DNA of 55,667 bases from Fibrobacterota bacterium (GTDB lineage: Bacteria; Fibrobacterota; Fibrobacteria; UBA11236), in NCBI GenBank assembly GCA_028287505.1, contig JAQBPN010000044.1, positions 1 to 55,667 of the forward strand, in the 5' to 3' direction. The notes under the pieces are model-generated. The model saw nothing but the letters and a program-made list of their open reading frames with translations, had not been told where the DNA came from and did no database searches. The first letter of the stretch is position 1. Each line of letters opens with the position of its first letter. Below, in pieces: positions 37,636-45,030 of the stretch. The translations under genes and the position numbers were made by a program.

Positions 37636-38670
37636 ATGAAGTTCATGATCCTCCTGGCCGCCATGGCTCTATCCGGGACCGGATCCGCCCGGGTCGCCGA
37701 TTGGCCCCATGACGGGAAATACGGCATGGGCACGCGCCACCTGATCATCAGGAACCATCTCCCCAAGGATCTCTATATCGATGTGCTCAGCGGCGGCAAC
37801 TCCCTGCTCAAAAGCGACGAGTTCATGTTGCCCGCGGGAGGCGATACCGTATACGAGGTTCCCAACGTCTGGCGGGCCAGCCGGTTGTGGGGGCGCACCG
37901 AGAAGGCGCAAACGGGTCCCAGCACCTTGGTGGAATGGACCATGGGCAAGCGGGACTGGTACGACATCAGCCTGGTGGACGGCTACAATCTTCCCGTGAC
38001 GGTGGCTCCCGTGCCGGGCACCTATGCCAAAATCGACGCCAACGATCCCTTGCAATGCGGCACCGTCAGCTGCGCGGAGGACCTTTTGCCCGACTGCCCG
38101 CCGGAGCTGCAAAAGAAAGACGCCTTAGGCCAGGTGGTGCAATGCCTCAGCGCCTGCTCCAAATACAACAAGGACGAATATTGCTGCCGCGGAATCTACG
38201 ACTCCGCCCAGATCTGCCGGCCGGAAACGTGGGAGATGAACTATCCCGCGACCTTCAAGGCGGCCTGCCCCACGGCGGTGACGTATGCCTTCGACGATTC
38301 TCTCAACACGTTCATCTGCCCTTCGGGAAGCGAGGAGGTGGGGCCCGACTATGAAATCGGGTTCGGCGCATTGCGCGCCACCTCGGACCCCATCGCCGTC
38401 TTCACCGCCCCTGCGATCGGACGCTTGCGCGTTTCCCTCGAGCCCGGGCTCCTGAGGTTTTCCCGGGCCGATGGGGGAGATCTGCGCATCGGTCTGTACG
38501 ATGCTCGGGGACGTACCGTCCTGGAAAAAAGGCTGTCCGCCTCCGCCGGCAGTTTTGCCGTCCCGGCCTTGCGGGCCGGTGTATACGTGGCCGCCGTGTA
38601 CGCCGGGGGGCGCTTCCTGGAGTCCCGCGAACTCCGCGCCGGGGACTCCCCGGCCTTTCCCGGACGATAG
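37636..38670 (+). CDS. secreted thaumatin-like protein with C-terminal sorting-like domain
   Basis: 344 residues. A signal peptide (about 1-18, ending GTGSA) precedes a thaumatin/PR-5 domain (about 30-240). Diagnostic stretches are STLVEWTMGKRDWYDISLVDGYNLPVTVAP, then CPPELQKKD, CLSACSKYNKDEYCCRG, CRPETWEMNYPATFKAACPTAVTYAFDDSLNTFICP. These are the plant pattern AEFTL..DFYDISLVDGFN, CP.EL, YCC, S..FK..CP.AYSYA.DD.TFTC, with cysteines at the expected places. A C-terminal Ig-like module (LRIGLYDARGRTVLEKRL...LRAGVYVAAVYAGG) resembles those of other secreted proteins here. Thaumatin-like proteins bind or cleave beta-glucans in plants and fungi; bacterial members are uncommon and uncharacterised. 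Confidence 0.88.
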   Translation: MKFMILLAAMALSGTGSARVADWPHDGKYGMGTRHLIIRNHLPKDLYIDVLSGGNSLLKSDEFMLPAGGDTVYEVPNVWRASRLWGRTEKAQTGPSTLVEWTMGKRDWYDISLVDGYNLPVTVAPVPGTYAKIDANDPLQCGTVSCAEDLLPDCPPELQKKDALGQVVQCLSACSKYNKDEYCCRGIYDSAQICRPETWEMNYPATFKAACPTAVTYAFDDSLNTFICPSGSEEVGPDYEIGFGALRATSDPIAVFTAPAIGRLRVSLEPGLLRFSRADGGDLRIGLYDARGRTVLEKRLSASAGSFAVPALRAGVYVAAVYAGGRFLESRELRAGDSPAFPGR

Positions 38671-38752
38671 GAAAGCCGCGTCGGCCGAAGCGTCAAAACC
38701 CCCGACACATTCCGGCGCCCCCACGCCGCTCGCCGGCGTTTATCTTAAAAAG

Positions 38753-40000
38753 ATGGCGATAGAGAACGGAAACCGCCTTGACGCTTTGCTGGCCGCGCGG
38801 CGCGCCACGGAGGCTTTGTGCGCGCCCCTGCGTACGGAAGATCATGTGGTCCAGCCCCGGGAAGCCGTCAGTCCTCCCAAATGGCATCTGGCCCACACCA
38901 CCTGGTTCTTCGAGACCTTCCTGCTGGGGAGGTATCAGCCCGGTTACCATCCCGCCGCCGCGGAATACGCGTTTCTTTTCAATTCCTATTACGAATCGGT
39001 CGGAAGCCGCGCCGAAAAAGGCGAGCGCGGAAGCTATTCGCGTCCCACCGTCCGGGAGGTCTTGGCGTACCGGCGCCGGGTGGACGAAAGCCTGGGAGAC
39101 CTGTTGGCTTCGCCCCTGGCTCGCAATCCCGACGTGGAGGGGCTGGTGGAGTTGGGCATCCACCATGAGCAACAGCACCAGGAGCTGCTGGTCACGGACA
39201 TCAAGGCCATCCTGCATTTCAATCCATCGCGGCCGGCTTACCTGGAAGGGAGCACGGAGTTCCACCCGCGCCCGGCGAAGCCGGAATCCAATCCGGCTTC
39301 CGCCATCGGACTTTCCTCTCCGCCGGCGCCAAAGCCGCGCTGGATTGCATTCCCATCCGGTCTGCGCGAAATCGGCTGGCACGGAGGCGGATTCTCATTC
39401 GACAACGAAAGACCGCGGCATCCGGTATTCGTGGCGGGCTTCCGCCTGGAAGATCGGCTGGTCACCAATGCCGGGTACCTGGAGTTCATCCGCGCGGAAG
39501 GGTATTCGCGTCCGGAGTTCTGGTTGTCCGAAGGCTGGCGCCTGGCGCGCCAGGAGGGCTGGAAGGCGCCGCTCTATTGGGAAGAGATCGATGGGCGCTG
39601 GAGCGAATACACCCTGGGCGGAACCCGTCCCCTGGATCCGGATTCCCCGGTTTGCCACGTCAGCCATTTCGAAGCGGATGCATTCGCCCGCTGGCGTCGC
39701 GCCCGCCTGCCCACGGAGGCGGAATGGGAGACGGCCTGCATCGCCGGGGACGCCGGATTGCTGCAGATGACCGGCGAACTCTGGCAATGGACCGCCTCCG
39801 CCTATCTGCCCTACCCGGGCTTCCGGCCCTTTCCGGGAGCGGTGGGGGAGTATAACGGAAAATTCATGATGGACCAGATGGTCCTGCGAGGCGGATCCTG
39901 CGCCACTCCCGCCGGGCATCTGCGTCCCACCTACAGGAACTTCTTTCCCGCCGCGACCCGCTGGCAATTCAGCGGTATCCGGCTGGCGGAGGATGGATGA
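38753..40000 (+). CDS. egtB: EgtB, ergothioneine sulfoxide synthase
   Basis: 415 residues from ATG at 38753; the longer frame is read through the previous gene. EgtB is a non-haem iron enzyme that joins a thiol to trimethylhistidine with O2. The DinB-like N-terminal half carries PPKWHLAHTTWFFETFLL (about 42-59) and HHEQQHQELLVTDIK (about 137-151), which give the three iron-binding His residues. The C-terminal FGE/formylglycine-type domain has FSFDNERPRHPVFVAGF, RLPTEAEWE, LWQWTASAYLPYPGFRP and VLRGGSCATPAGHLRPTYRNFF. The ribosome-binding site is weak. It overlaps egtD by four bases (ATGA). No egtA, egtC or egtE is adjacent. Confidence 0.96.
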   Translation: MAIENGNRLDALLAARRATEALCAPLRTEDHVVQPREAVSPPKWHLAHTTWFFETFLLGRYQPGYHPAAAEYAFLFNSYYESVGSRAEKGERGSYSRPTVREVLAYRRRVDESLGDLLASPLARNPDVEGLVELGIHHEQQHQELLVTDIKAILHFNPSRPAYLEGSTEFHPRPAKPESNPASAIGLSSPPAPKPRWIAFPSGLREIGWHGGGFSFDNERPRHPVFVAGFRLEDRLVTNAGYLEFIRAEGYSRPEFWLSEGWRLARQEGWKAPLYWEEIDGRWSEYTLGGTRPLDPDSPVCHVSHFEADAFARWRRARLPTEAEWETACIAGDAGLLQMTGELWQWTASAYLPYPGFRPFPGAVGEYNGKFMMDQMVLRGGSCATPAGHLRPTYRNFFPAATRWQFSGIRLAEDG

Positions 40001-41013
40001 AAGGCAGGGAATCCCGCTCGCACCTCATCGTGGAGAATGCCCAATGGGATGCGGGGCGCGCGGCCGCCGATCGCCAGGAATTCCTGCGGGACGTGGTGGA
40101 GGGTTTGTCGCGCCGGCCCAAATCCCTGCCCTGCAGACACTTCTATGATGCCGAAGGCAGCCGCATTTTCGAAGAGATCATGCGCATGCCCGCGTACTAT
40201 CCCACGCGACGGGAAACGGAAATCCTCGCCCGCTGCCAGCGGGACATACGGGAGGCCATGAGGGAGGAGCCTTTCCACCTGGTGGATCTGGGGGCCGGCG
40301 ACGGAGCCAAGACCCGCATCCTCCTGGAACCTTTCCATCGGGAAGGATGCCTGCAAAGCTATGTGCCCGTGGACATCTCCGGGGACTCGCTGTCCCGCAT
40401 GGCCGAATCCCTGCGGCGGGAGATGCCCGGTCTGGTCGTCCATCCCCTGGCCGACGAATATTTTCCCGCCCTCGATCGATTGAGCGCGGCCGGCCTGGGA
40501 CCCAAGCTGGTCCTGTTCCTGGGTTCCACCATCGGCAATTTCGACGAGCGGGAAGCGGTATCCTTTCTCAAGGGCATCCGCTCCTTCCTGGAACCGGGGG
40601 ACGCTTTGCTGATCGGATTCGATCTCCGCAAGGATCCCGGCGTCATCCTGCGCGCCTATGACGACGAAGACGGGATAACGGCGCGCTTCAATCTCAATCT
40701 GCTGGCGCGAATCAATCGCGAGTTGGAGGCCGATTTTTCCCCGGCCGGCTTTCTGCACCACGCGGTGTATGATCCCGAGCAAGGGGTGGCCAGGAGTTAT
40801 CTGGTGTCCCGCCGGGATCAAGCCGTGCGCATCCGCAAAGCGGGGCTCACCTTCCGCTTCGAGGCCTGGGAGTCCATCCATACCGAGAATGCATTCAAGT
40901 TTTCGCCGGCGGAGATCCGCAGGTTGGCGGAGGCTTCAGGATTTTTGGAATCCGCCCGCTTCAGCGACCGGGAAGCCTCCTTCCAGAACTCGTTTTGGAC
41001 TATTCCCGGCTAG
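39997..41013 (+). CDS. egtD: EgtD, L-histidine N-alpha-methyltransferase
   Basis: 338 residues, family length. EgtD makes N-alpha-trimethylhistidine (hercynine) from His and three SAM, the first step of ergothioneine synthesis. Landmarks: SLPCRHFYDAEGSRIFEEIMRMPAYYPTRRETEIL at about 42-76, the SAM-binding VDLGAGDGAKTRILL (about 95-110), YVPVDISGDSL, LFLGSTIGNFDEREAVSFL, and the C-terminal IHTENAFKFSPAEIRRLAEASGF. It is translationally coupled to egtB, giving a two-gene ergothioneine operon. Confidence 0.97.
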   Translation: MKGRESRSHLIVENAQWDAGRAAADRQEFLRDVVEGLSRRPKSLPCRHFYDAEGSRIFEEIMRMPAYYPTRRETEILARCQRDIREAMREEPFHLVDLGAGDGAKTRILLEPFHREGCLQSYVPVDISGDSLSRMAESLRREMPGLVVHPLADEYFPALDRLSAAGLGPKLVLFLGSTIGNFDEREAVSFLKGIRSFLEPGDALLIGFDLRKDPGVILRAYDDEDGITARFNLNLLARINRELEADFSPAGFLHHAVYDPEQGVARSYLVSRRDQAVRIRKAGLTFRFEAWESIHTENAFKFSPAEIRRLAEASGFLESARFSDREASFQNSFWTIPG

Positions 41014-41136
41014 TTAGGCACTCTGGGAATAGCAAGCCTATTTAATCCCCCGTCAATTCTTACTAAATATGCCTGACAAAATTCGGCTACCCTGTTTCGA
41101 TTTTATACCTTTTTCGAACCTGGCTTCTGGAAGGAC

Positions 41137-41820
41137 ATGACATTCATGGGACAAAGGTTCGCTATTGCTTCCGATACGAGGGAGTGGCTATTGACCAAAT
41201 TCGCCCGGGGGAAGGCCAATTACTGGTTCACCTTCGTCGCCGATTTCAGCGCGGCCATGTTCTTCCTCGTCTGGGAGATAGTATCACGCGGGATACGCCC
41301 CGCTTGGGCCGGAGTCGCCTTCTTCGCCGGAATCATGGCCTGGGGCCTGACCGAATACATCTTCCACCGCTGGGTATACCATCAACCCGATGGGATTTTC
41401 GGCGAAGGACACAACATCCACCATACCGAGGCCCAGGAGCTGATTGCCATGCCTTGGTTCATGACCACCCTGACCATGTTCGCCCTCTGGGCGTTCTGCG
41501 CCCGGATCCTCAATATTCCCTATTTTTCGAGCATTCTGTCCGGCTGGCTGGCGGGATTCGTCTGGTATTCAATTGTGCATCATAGTCATCACCATTGGAT
41601 TCTCCGGAACGGCTGGATCCGGAGGCTGAAGGCTTATCATCGCGTCCACCACCAGTTTCCCGGCTACAATTTCGGCGTAACCATCAGGTATTGGGACGTG
41701 GTGTTCGGAACCGTCTATCGCAAGCCCGGACAAGCGGTCCAGGGCCTTTCCGGCATCCGGCAGACGGCCAAGGTCGCCCATCCCGAAACCGCCCAGGAAG
41801 CCGTCCTGGCGGACGCCTAG
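41137..41820 (+). CDS. fatty acid hydroxylase / sterol desaturase family membrane enzyme
   Basis: 227 residues with four hydrophobic helices (about 31-50, 55-72, 108-125, 130-146). The di-iron histidine clusters of the family are all present: HRWVYH (about 77-82), HNIHH (about 92-96), HHSHHH (about 148-153) and HRVHHQ (about 168-173). Such enzymes hydroxylate long-chain fatty acids or lipid chains using O2; size and motif order fit the FA2H/Scs7-like 2-hydroxylase side of the family better than sterol desaturases, but this is inference. It ends overlapping by four bases the stop of the convergent Mpo1-like gene. It starts 123 bases after egtD with no clear terminator between. Confidence 0.88.
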   Translation: MTFMGQRFAIASDTREWLLTKFARGKANYWFTFVADFSAAMFFLVWEIVSRGIRPAWAGVAFFAGIMAWGLTEYIFHRWVYHQPDGIFGEGHNIHHTEAQELIAMPWFMTTLTMFALWAFCARILNIPYFSSILSGWLAGFVWYSIVHHSHHHWILRNGWIRRLKAYHRVHHQFPGYNFGVTIRYWDVVFGTVYRKPGQAVQGLSGIRQTAKVAHPETAQEAVLADA

Positions 41821-42338
41821 GGTTTGACGGTGCCGCCTTTGGCGGACCCGCCCCCGTCGGCCCTACCATTGGCCAACGGACCCTTCCAGCCCAAGGCCAA
41901 AAGCACCTCCGCCCAGAGAAACAACGGGGCCGTGAGTACCGCTTGAACGAAGTTGACCAGTAAAGCGGGTCGCTTTCCCTCGATGGCGTGCCCAATCAGC
42001 TGGAATGCCCAACCCAATACGAACGATATTATGAACACCGACAGGGACGTCCCGAATGGAAGCCGTGAAATCCAGTCCGCGGCCCAAGTCATGGGAAGCA
42101 TGGTCAAGGTCATCAGAGTTGCCAAAACGGGCTCCAGGAGGAAATAATACACCAGCGCGGAAAGGACGAATGCCATCGCCAGGGTAACCCTGTGGCCGGA
42201 CACGTCCAGCGACAACCACCCCATGGGAATGAGGATGGAAAAAGTCACCAGCGGCACGCCCAGAAAATGGGTAGCCTTGCACCCTGGGGTCCGATGATAG
42301 GACTGGTAAAAGGCCAATTGTTCCGAGAGGGATTTCAT
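41817..42338 (-). CDS. Mpo1-like (DUF962) membrane protein
   Basis: 173 residues. Family landmarks are LAFYQSYHRTPGCKATHFLGVPL near the N-terminus (about 8-30; the YHxxxxNxxxHxxGxP pattern) and GWAFQLIGHAIEGKRPALLVNF (about 109-130; the GHxxxExxxPAL pattern), with about four transmembrane helices. Yeast Mpo1 is an Fe(II) dioxygenase that shortens 2-hydroxy fatty acids by one carbon (alpha-oxidation). The convergent, overlapping neighbour is a fatty acid hydroxylase-like gene that could make that substrate. The C-terminus is Gly/Pro-rich. ATG at 42338; the upstream sequence gives no strong Shine-Dalgarno. Confidence 0.87.
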   Translation of the reverse strand: MKSLSEQLAFYQSYHRTPGCKATHFLGVPLVTFSILIPMGWLSLDVSGHRVTLAMAFVLSALVYYFLLEPVLATLMTLTMLPMTWAADWISRLPFGTSLSVFIISFVLGWAFQLIGHAIEGKRPALLVNFVQAVLTAPLFLWAEVLLALGWKGPLANGRADGGGSAKGGTVKP

Positions 42339-42370
42339 TCTGGTAATAGTATAGCCGAAATGTTCCGATC

Positions 42371-43249
42371 ATGAAACAAACATTGAAACGGACGATATTT
42401 CTGCTGTACGGTTTGCACGGATTGGTTTCCGCCATGAACATGGAGGATCCCGCCACGGACTTCGCGTTCCTGGAATTCGAGCCCTATCCCAGCTTGGGCG
42501 GCACGCGTTTCAGCGGGCCCGCGGTGGCGGAATCCAGCGCCAAGCGCGCCTGGCGGCTGGCCGGGCAGCTTTCCTTTCCGGCCGGCAAGATCGGGGACAA
42601 TCAGCTTTTCGGATCCTTCAAATCGACTTTGATGGACAGGGACATCGTCTACAACGATACCCTGCTCCTGAACGACGGCGTATTGGAACGCTTCTGGCTG
42701 AGCGGCGGTTCCACCTGGCCGGGACGCGATGGCCAAAGCTCCCTGGCGCTGGTAGGGGTGGGCGTCAACAGCGACTTCGCCGACATCGGTCTGCTGGACT
42801 TCAATACCGAGTGGATCTATTCGCATTTCTGGACCTTGAATCCTTCCTTCAATTGGGGATTGGGCCTGGATGTCCAACAGTATTTCCACAAGTACCAGCC
42901 CTACCCGCTCATCTTCGTCGACTGGAAGGTATCGGAAAAGACCAAGCTGAAATGGGACGCCGATTTCCTCGAGATGCGCCGCTTCCTGTCCCCGTGGCTT
43001 TGCTTCACCGCCGGCGTCCGGTTCAATCTGGAGTTCTTCGCCCTGAAGGATGACGCGGACTTCGAATACAACAGCATGGGATTGGAAACCGGCTTCCAGT
43101 ACGCGGTGGGGCGCAACTGCTACGCCCGCATCAAATACAAGGAGTTGGTCTGGGGGAAGGAAACCCTGGGCCTTCCCGATGGCACCCACCACACGCGCGG
43201 CATCGATGCCGGGCGCAGCCTCCGCCTCAACTTCGCCTACGGCCTCTGA
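42371..43249 (+). CDS. predicted outer-membrane beta-barrel protein (DUF6268-like)
   Basis: 292 residues. A signal peptide (about 1-21, KRTIFLLYGLHGLVSA) is followed by alternating amphipathic strands rich in Trp, Tyr and Phe: AWRLAGQLSFPAGK, QLFGSFKSTLMD, SSLALVGVGVNSDF, FNWGLGLDVQQYF, PLIFVDWKVSEKTKLKWDADFLEM, LCFTAGVRFNLEFFAL, SMGLETGFQYAVGRNCYARIKYKEL. The protein ends in SLRLNFAYGL, with an aromatic residue close to the C-terminus as in barrels. This is the pattern of a 10-14-strand barrel, probably DUF6268. The divergent Mpo1-like gene begins 33 bases away, so both promoters share a very short region. Confidence 0.72.
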   Translation: MKQTLKRTIFLLYGLHGLVSAMNMEDPATDFAFLEFEPYPSLGGTRFSGPAVAESSAKRAWRLAGQLSFPAGKIGDNQLFGSFKSTLMDRDIVYNDTLLLNDGVLERFWLSGGSTWPGRDGQSSLALVGVGVNSDFADIGLLDFNTEWIYSHFWTLNPSFNWGLGLDVQQYFHKYQPYPLIFVDWKVSEKTKLKWDADFLEMRRFLSPWLCFTAGVRFNLEFFALKDDADFEYNSMGLETGFQYAVGRNCYARIKYKELVWGKETLGLPDGTHHTRGIDAGRSLRLNFAYGL

Positions 43250-43264
43250 GGCCGCCCGCTTCCG

Positions 43265-43951
43265 TCATAAGTGCTGTTCGAACCAATGACAGGCCAGGCG
43301 CGAGACCTTTTCGGTGATGCGCGCGTCGTCGCGCCCCTTCGCGTAACCGGGGATGAATTCCAGGCGCTTCCGCCCGGGAACCGCGTTGATGCAGTCCCGG
43401 GCCAGGTCCGCTTCCGCGTCTTCCTCGTCGCCCGCGATAATCATGGTGGGCGCGCGCAGGCGCCTCATGATCCTGATCTCCCCGGGCGCGGGCAGGCCCG
43501 CCGCGACCACGGCCGCCACTTCCCCCGGGCGGGCCACCGCGACCTTGAAGGCCGGCCAGGCCCCCGGTCCGATTCCGAAGAGACCCAAGGGCAATCCCGC
43601 GGCTTCGGGTAGATCCCGCACCCATCCCAGGGAATCGTCCAGGCGTTCCGCCAACATTTCCGCGTCGAAGCACGTATTGTCTTCGCCGGCTACGCCAAGC
43701 TCTTCCGCTTGTTTGCCGATTTCCGATTCCTCTTCGGTCAACAAGTCCATGATCAGGATGCCGAATCCATCCTTGGTGAAATATTCCGCCACGTTCTGCA
43801 CGCGCTGGGAATACCGCGGCCGGCTGCCCGCATGGGCGAGCACTATCAGCCCATTGGCGCCGCTTGGAACCTGCATTTCCGCGTCCAATATCGAAGAGCC
43901 GGCCGGAACCTGCACCGGAAACCCCTCGGAAAACCATTCCTGCATCATCAT
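43265..43951 (-). CDS. alpha/beta hydrolase (dienelactone-hydrolase-like)
   Basis: 228 residues from the first of three consecutive ATGs at 43951, preceded by AGGGGGG; a longer frame to 44200 lacks support and crosses the promoter of the next gene. The fold reads as alpha/beta hydrolase: GANGLIVLAHAGSRPRYSQRVQNVAEYFTKDGFGILIMDLLTEEES (oxyanion strand and strand 4), then GLPLGLFGIGPGAWPAF at the nucleophile elbow and APTMIIAGDEEDAEAD near the acid. The elbow is G-I-G-P-G instead of G-x-S-x-G, so the usual Ser nucleophile is missing, and activity is doubtful or altered. It lies divergent from pip. Confidence 0.75.
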   Translation of the reverse strand: MMMQEWFSEGFPVQVPAGSSILDAEMQVPSGANGLIVLAHAGSRPRYSQRVQNVAEYFTKDGFGILIMDLLTEEESEIGKQAEELGVAGEDNTCFDAEMLAERLDDSLGWVRDLPEAAGLPLGLFGIGPGAWPAFKVAVARPGEVAAVVAAGLPAPGEIRIMRRLRAPTMIIAGDEEDAEADLARDCINAVPGRKRLEFIPGYAKGRDDARITEKVSRLACHWFEQHL

Positions 43952-44021
43952 GGGTGCGGCCCCCCTATATCCTGAATTAAAACAAGCCGAGGAGGGTCCC
44001 CAATATATTCGGCATGACAAA

Positions 44022-44038
44022 TTGGCATGCTCCGTGCT
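44022..44038 (+). promoter_or_regulatory. possible sigma-54-type promoter before pip
   Basis: TTGGCATG-CTCC-GTGCT keeps GG and GC ten bases apart, as in the -24/-12 consensus TGGCACG-N4-TTGCW, with three mismatches. It lies 45 bases before the pip start. No activator site is seen, and the match could be chance. Confidence 0.25.
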
Positions 44039-44082
44039 TGCGGAACGCGCTTCCGCCGCGGCGAATGCTATTTTGGGATGAT

Positions 44083-45030
44083 ATGGCGCCAGCAGGATTC
44101 TTTCCCGAAATCGAGCCCTATCGTACCGGATACCTGCAGGTTTCCCCCATCCACAGCATCTATTTCGAGGAAGCGGGTTTGCCCCACGGCGCTCCCGCAT
44201 TGTTCCTGCACGGCGGCCCGGGCGCGGGTATCAATCCCAAGCACCGGCGGTTTTTCGATCCCTCCCACTACCGGATCCTTCTTTTCGATCAACGGGGAGC
44301 GGGGCGCAGCAAGCCGCATGCGGAGCTTCTGGAGAACACCACCGACCATCTCATCGAGGACATCGAAAAACTCCGGCGCATGGCGGGAGTGGAAAAGTGG
44401 CTCGTGTTCGGCGGCAGTTGGGGAAGCACCCTGGCCTTGGCCTATGCCATCCGGCATCCCTCGCGGGTTTCCGGCCTCATCCTGCGCGGGGTTTTCCTGG
44501 GCCGCAAGAGTGAAGTCCGCTGGTTGTTCCAGGAAGGCGCTTCCGCGGTTTTCCCGGACTACTGGGAGAAATTCCTAGAGCGGATACCGCCTGGGGAGCG
44601 CCAGGACCTGGTCGAGGCCTACTACAAAAGGCTTACGGACCAGGACGCGGAGGTGCGCTTGCGTTCGGCCCAGGCGTGGAGCGGATGGGAAGCTTCCGTG
44701 TGCAAGCTCATCCCGGATGAGAACCTGATCCGCGAATCCGTTGCGGACAAGATGGCGCTGGCCCTGGCGCGGCTGGAATGCCATTACTGTCTCAACGGCC
44801 TGTTCCTGCCCTCCGAAAACCATATCCTCGACAACGCCGCCGTGATCGCGGATATCCGCTGCCGCATCGTGCAAGGCCGCTACGATATGGCGTGCCCGCC
44901 GGTTTCGGCATGGGACCTGCACCGCGCATTGCCCCGATCGGAAATCCGCATCGTTCCCGACGCCGGACATTCCGCCACGGAACCCTCCTTGGTGCGGGAA
45001 TTGGTGCAGGCAACGGAAGACTTCAAGTGA
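44083..45030 (+). CDS. pip: proline iminopeptidase (peptidase family S33)
   Basis: 315 residues from ATG at 44083, the normal family length; the longer frame from 44014 would add 23 atypical residues. The enzyme removes N-terminal proline from peptides in the cytoplasm. Landmarks: ALFLHGGPGAGINPKHRRFFDPSHYRILLFDQRGAGRSKPHA (oxyanion HGGPG and DQRGAGRS), the nucleophile elbow GGSWGSTLALAYA with Ser112, RGVFLGRKSEVRWLFQEGAS, the WExxVCKLIP-like segment, and GRYDMACPP (Asp) with GHSATEP (His) at the end. All catalytic elements are present. Confidence 0.95.
   Translation: MAPAGFFPEIEPYRTGYLQVSPIHSIYFEEAGLPHGAPALFLHGGPGAGINPKHRRFFDPSHYRILLFDQRGAGRSKPHAELLENTTDHLIEDIEKLRRMAGVEKWLVFGGSWGSTLALAYAIRHPSRVSGLILRGVFLGRKSEVRWLFQEGASAVFPDYWEKFLERIPPGERQDLVEAYYKRLTDQDAEVRLRSAQAWSGWEASVCKLIPDENLIRESVADKMALALARLECHYCLNGLFLPSENHILDNAAVIADIRCRIVQGRYDMACPPVSAWDLHRALPRSEIRIVPDAGHSATEPSLVRELVQATEDFK

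Follow-up and report, generated by a model that had tools for sequence, protein, structure and literature searches.

In all six genomes of one Fibrobacterota genus, a gene for a putative FA2H-side hydroxylase (fah, product FAH) and a gene for a long-type Mpo1-like protein (mpo1) are convergent neighbours, followed by a gene for a DUF6268-like protein. Of the 167 genomes of the phylum, the same 8 carry a member of the FAH clade, an Mpo1 and a strong DUF6268-like ortholog. This shared distribution, in which Mpo1 is of two different types, gives a hint that the three proteins are functionally linked. We tentatively propose that FAH 2-hydroxylates a non-sphingolipid acyl chain and works with the DUF6268-like protein, and that Mpo1 disposes of the 2-hydroxy acids released, a reading that we hold to be somewhat short of probable.

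The convergent fah-mpo1 pair and its surroundings

The window, that is the whole stretch of 55,667 nucleotides analysed, belongs to a genome of 6.07 Mb that is 98.69% complete (features in Table 1). As the original prediction had stated, both open reading frames are present and run tail to tail, their stop codons overlapping by four bases. Its two family calls, a hydroxylase and an Mpo1-like protein, were confirmed by Pfam, where the fah product matched PF04116 (FA_hydroxylase) with 58.1 bits (cut-off 31) and the mpo1 product matched PF06127 (Mpo1-like) with 68.3 bits (cut-off 24), each being the single match of its family in the window's own genome. The conservation expected of the pair stood for the convergent arrangement, kept in every genome of the genus, and not for the overlap, as the spacing between the two genes in the six genomes was -4, +39, +2, +18, +79 and -14. 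Because it ranges this widely, the four-base overlap is incidental. The further idea that the overlapping stops would make the two transcripts antisense at their ends was not upheld, since the spacing varies and a scan of 40900-43400 found no excess of promoter- or terminator-like sites over shuffled sequence; antisense regulation as a special feature of the overlapping stops was rejected on the variation within the genus.

Table 1. Features of the fah-mpo1 locus and its flanks (positions in the window).
Feature	Position	Strand	Description
Thaumatin-family gene	37636..38670		bacterial thaumatin-family protein; PF00314, E 1.8e-40
EgtB and EgtD genes	38471..41013		ergothioneine genes directly upstream of fah; EgtB TIGR03440, 526 bits; EgtD TIGR03438, 317 bits
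fah	41137..41820	+	227 aa; PF04116 E 1.6e-15; FA2H/Scs7-side membrane di-iron hydroxylase (putative)
CTAG common to fah and mpo1 stop codons	41817..41820		read in sequence
mpo1	41817..42338	-	173 aa; PF06127 E 6.6e-19; long-type Mpo1-like (DUF962), putative Fe2+ dioxygenase of 2-hydroxy fatty acids
DUF6268-like gene	42371..43249	+	292 aa; PF19783 E 4.5e-5; apparent signal peptide
Dienelactone-hydrolase-family gene	43265..44200		between DUF6268-like gene and aminopeptidase; in 3/5 other genus genomes
Prolyl aminopeptidase gene	44014..45030		TIGR01249, 425 bits; downstream of the block in 5/5 other genus genomes

With regard to the flanking genes, the family match of EgtB begins only at residue 104, so that translation of this frame likely begins downstream of the first start codon, and the dienelactone-hydrolase-family gene probably also has a later true start, as the first possible one falls within the neighbouring gene. 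A link of fah to the upstream EgtB/EgtD genes was considered and rejected, EgtD adjoining fah in only one of the five other genus genomes (the upstream stretch was short in L023).

FAH falls on the FA2H side of its family

Yeast Scs7 was the sole significant PDB match of FAH (E 1.6e-7 when FAH was searched alone, 3.8e-15 with a profile of nine sequences), while another PF04116 member from the window's genus, a paralog scoring above FAH in Pfam, had no PDB match at E <= 1. Scs7 was also the top Foldseek match (E 1.8e-5) of the predicted FAH model (pLDDT 71). Alignment of this model to Scs7 by VIA-align gave a Z of 12.9 with an rmsd of 4.6 over 181 residues and Z 6.3 for the next unrelated row, FAH being helical, so that a Z under about 13 would by itself be weak in this program. 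Ten histidines of FAH (77, 82, 92, 95, 96, 148, 152, 168, 171 and 172) are invariant in nine relatives, and all of them align with metal-site positions of Scs7, which we take to be the ligands of its di-metal centre. FAH differs from Scs7/FA2H in its identity of about 26%, its separate bacterial clade and the lack of a cytochrome b5 domain, PF04116 alone being found in its 227 residues; such a domain is not defining for fatty acid 2-hydroxylases, as the plant FAH1/2 enzymes are not known to carry one.

PF04116 spans carotenoid, hopanoid/sterol, ornithine-lipid head-group and varied acyl hydroxylation chemistries, and this breadth leaves room for FAH to act on a carotenoid, a hopanoid or sterol, or the head group of an ornithine lipid, or to hydroxylate acyl chains elsewhere than at C-2. 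In a 46-row tree, which leaves out one match with an incomplete frame (L061, genome G001), FAH sits in a bacterial clade that neighbours the Scs7 group and is not part of it, a weakly supported placement (85/71) that also fits a substrate of this other kind. The same tree has a starred split (95/89) that puts FAH, Scs7 and 28 other rows on one side and 16 rows on the other, among them OlsE/sterol-desaturase-like and CrtZ-like proteins, L059 and L068 being presumably CrtZ-like by their motifs; the long branches X_L110, S_L050, X_L101 and S_L051 are placed unsurely. Nine of the tree proteins were scanned against NCBIfam for labels. Two Fibrobacterota PF04116 paralogs, both on the 16-row side, matched the OlsE ornithine-lipid hydroxylase model (NF052566) strongly, whereas FAH, which shares with OlsE the PF04116 superfamily, had no NCBIfam match at E <= 0.01, this model included; one row on the FAH side, X_L091, matched it weakly (E 3.3e-4; 20 bits, where the cut-off is 475). 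Moreover, a C-terminal block, GVT..WD.VFGT, is common to FAH and Scs7 and missing from the CrtZ-like sequences. With these observations against it, a substrate other than an acyl chain hydroxylated at C-2 seems unlikely to us.

The grouping with sterol or carotenoid enzymes, which had been set beforehand against the hydroxylase reading, was thus not seen, and Scs7 is the best match both by sequence and by fold. Judged on these comparisons, the placement of FAH on the FA2H side of PF04116 holds, and FAH, a candidate for an FA2H proper, is probably a membrane enzyme adding a hydroxyl group to fatty chains.

The substrate is unlikely to be a canonical sphingolipid

Aminotransferase-fold PF00155 has 17 matches in the window's genome, 13 of which were scanned against NCBIfam (all except L113, L125, L126 and L127). 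None of the 13 passed the cut-off for serine palmitoyltransferase; the nearest were one glycine C-acetyltransferase (KBL), above its own cut-off, one BioF-like and one PRK07505-like protein. A canonical sphingolipid is therefore an unlikely substrate for FAH, which sets this genome apart from what is expected of Scs7/FA2H. Earlier reports describe functional FA2H homologues, acting as 2-hydroxylases, in myxobacteria, where 2-hydroxylation is connected to sphingolipids (PMC10002949), and bacterial alpha-oxidation of fatty acids in the same group, with the iso-even fatty acids of Stigmatella arising by this route (PMC3035250). As far as these texts go, the myxobacterial systems (Ring 2009; Bode 2005) resemble ours in having a bacterial FA2H-like enzyme and a one-carbon shortening of fatty acids and differ in being tied to sphingolipids and iso-fatty acids, the likeness being one of description. 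A literature search, covering mostly papers outside subscription, returned no description of a FAH-Mpo1 gene pair.

The Mpo1-like protein is of a long type

Residues H15, H24, H117 and E120 of Mpo1 are invariant in the window's genus, and G116, H117, E120 and P124 are kept in all 28 rows of a wider alignment. The predicted model was poor (pLDDT 65), and a fold search with it gave no significant match. In a tree of Mpo1 proteins, the long Mpo1 of the window's genus groups with proteobacterial proteins (92/93, not starred), being 36-37% identical to relatives such as that of Acinetobacter, and the Mpo1 of the sister genus, a short form of about 100 residues, falls away from it. The length of the window's Mpo1-like protein is similar to that of yeast Mpo1. 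The family match, PF06127 above its cut-off, is what likens the window protein to the yeast enzyme (Seki 2019), from which it differs as a long type with proteobacterial relatives and a putative dioxygenase activity. Yeast Mpo1 is described, in papers citing the original work (PMC13332142, PMC9624242), as a Fe2+-dependent dioxygenase of 2-hydroxy fatty acids, and by analogy it is plausible that the window's Mpo1 carries out the Fe2+-dependent alpha-cleavage of such acids.

A DUF6268-like gene is the most constant partner of fah

The most constant partner of fah, absent from the original prediction, is the DUF6268-like gene, which lies in one block with fah in all eight genomes, adjoining it in two and standing next but one, across mpo1, in six. 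Its product matches PF19783 just above the cut-off, a family that 7 of 8 relatives match when E is at most 1. It has an N-terminus that reads by eye as signal-like, and its search against the PDB gave nothing below E 0.5; possibly it is an outer-membrane beta-barrel. Six distant homologues were read with their short flanking sequences, in which nothing telling was seen. A second, weaker relative is found elsewhere in the window's genome (G000:C114:15606-16442).

Within the window's genus, the DUF6268-like gene and mpo1 diverge from each other across 23-40 bases in all six genomes. In two genomes of the sister genus the DUF6268-like gene comes straight after fah in the same orientation and the two frames overlap, by 4 bases in one and by 8 to 11 in the other, depending on start choice; the Mpo1 of these genomes is the short type, encoded elsewhere and unlinked to fah. 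The adjacency of fah and mpo1 is not seen in the sister genus. Given this overlap and the different, short Mpo1 elsewhere, the FAH-DUF6268 unit looks older, and the simplest history would be that the long Mpo1 gene was placed between its two genes in one genus; alternatively, the sister genus may have lost an ancestral Mpo1 gene that once stood between the two. One sister-genus genome also encodes a further member of the FAH clade (L041:7989-8558, 46% identity), set among unrelated small envelope-like genes.

This arrangement bears on whether the neighbours share a pathway at all. FAH and the DUF6268-like protein might serve to produce or process a modified lipid, with Mpo1 as a housekeeping scavenger of 2-hydroxy acids, inserted by chance and kept by the synteny of the genus. 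The unlinked genes of the sister genus fit this possibility, as does the prolyl aminopeptidase gene further downstream, whose equally complete retention means that adjacency is not special to the pair.

FAH and Mpo1 are present together in Fibrobacterota

Co-presence within the phylum speaks against mere neighbourhood. Among 61 genomes, the window's own and its nearest relatives, the 8 that contain FAH are also the 8 that contain Mpo1, and the two coincided over the whole phylum as well. PF06127 matched in 9 of the 167 phylum genomes; the 8 above the Pfam cut-off are exactly those with FAH, and the ninth match falls below it. Some PF04116 protein is present in 17 of the 167, and weaker DUF6268-like relatives were found in 5 genomes beyond the eight. 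The sister genus has two genomes with both FAH and Mpo1 and two with neither, and the two genera use two different Mpo1 types, which also counts against chance insertion. COX1 was found in 20 genomes, 8 with FAH and Mpo1 and 12 with neither (two of the 12 being of the sister genus), so that an aerobic lifestyle is not sufficient as the sole cause of the co-presence. Fisher tests gave 7.9e-14 over the 167 genomes, 7.9e-6 over the 20 COX1-positive ones and 0.011 when only the 14 COX1-positive genomes from other genera are counted; because kinship is ignored, these values overstate the co-presence, which reflects few independent events in one clade of two genera.

No general FAH-Mpo1 module is found outside the phylum

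In Acidobacteriota, a close FAH was found in one record (35% identity, L042), whose genome has two Mpo1 genes, both on other contigs. With up to 7 candidates scored in each genome, FAH-profile matches at E <= 1e-20 occurred in at least 11 of 396 genomes of this phylum, and Mpo1 (PF06127) matches at E <= 0.001 in 100 of the 396, so Mpo1 genes are common alone. Mpo1 was present in 4 of 11 FAH-like genomes (at least 11 such exist) versus 96 of 385 others (p 0.29), and among the matches listed the 4 genomes with both genes always had them on different contigs. This non-linkage rests on Pfam coordinates, because a profile built from our own Mpo1 missed one of the two Mpo1 genes that Pfam found in genome G167. 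Fourteen stretches with a long Mpo1, chosen by match length from the 100 Acidobacteriota genomes, held no FAH-profile match. Of plasmid records, 16 matched FAH and 18 matched Mpo1, none matching both (12 neighbour stretches were looked at, with L085, L086, L088, L105 and L110 lacking listed features). Among all stretches searched outside the window's genus, FAH and Mpo1 were never on one stretch.

Since there is no linkage in Acidobacteriota or in plasmid records, and no excess of co-occurrence in the former, we find no general FAH-Mpo1 module in the sequences searched, and the original prediction is supported in part. The missing association in Acidobacteriota, together with the solitary Mpo1 genes, is again what neighbours without a shared pathway would look like. 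Weighing this against the co-presence in Fibrobacterota, we regard such an unconnected neighbourhood as a real possibility, clearly short of probable.

A proposed role in envelope lipid turnover

In the reading that we prefer, FAH would hydroxylate an acyl chain of a non-sphingolipid envelope lipid, most likely at C-2, working primarily with the DUF6268-like protein. The long Mpo1 gene would have come between the two genes, on the opposite strand, in the window's genus, and its product would most likely remove free 2-hydroxy fatty acids set loose by lipid turnover, by an oxidative alpha-cleavage that yields a fatty acid one carbon shorter. That FAH and Mpo1 share one pathway is a view we take, by analogy with the known enzymes, with modest confidence. 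Going further, one may picture a sphingolipid-independent 2-hydroxy-lipid cycle, in which FAH, together with the possible barrel protein of the envelope, puts 2-hydroxy acyl chains in place and Mpo1 proteins, each recruited independently, turn the acids set free back into fatty acids shorter by one carbon, a scheme that in this full form we consider doubtful.

In conclusion, that the DUF6268-like gene accompanies fah so constantly points to an envelope function. Should FAH and Mpo1 act in separate pathways, their genes would be an ordinary pair of lipid genes; if the cycle is true, it would give genetic candidates for the bacterial alpha-oxidation step. An FA2H-side hydroxylase and an Mpo1 encoded side by side in one genus make a compact, testable candidate pair.
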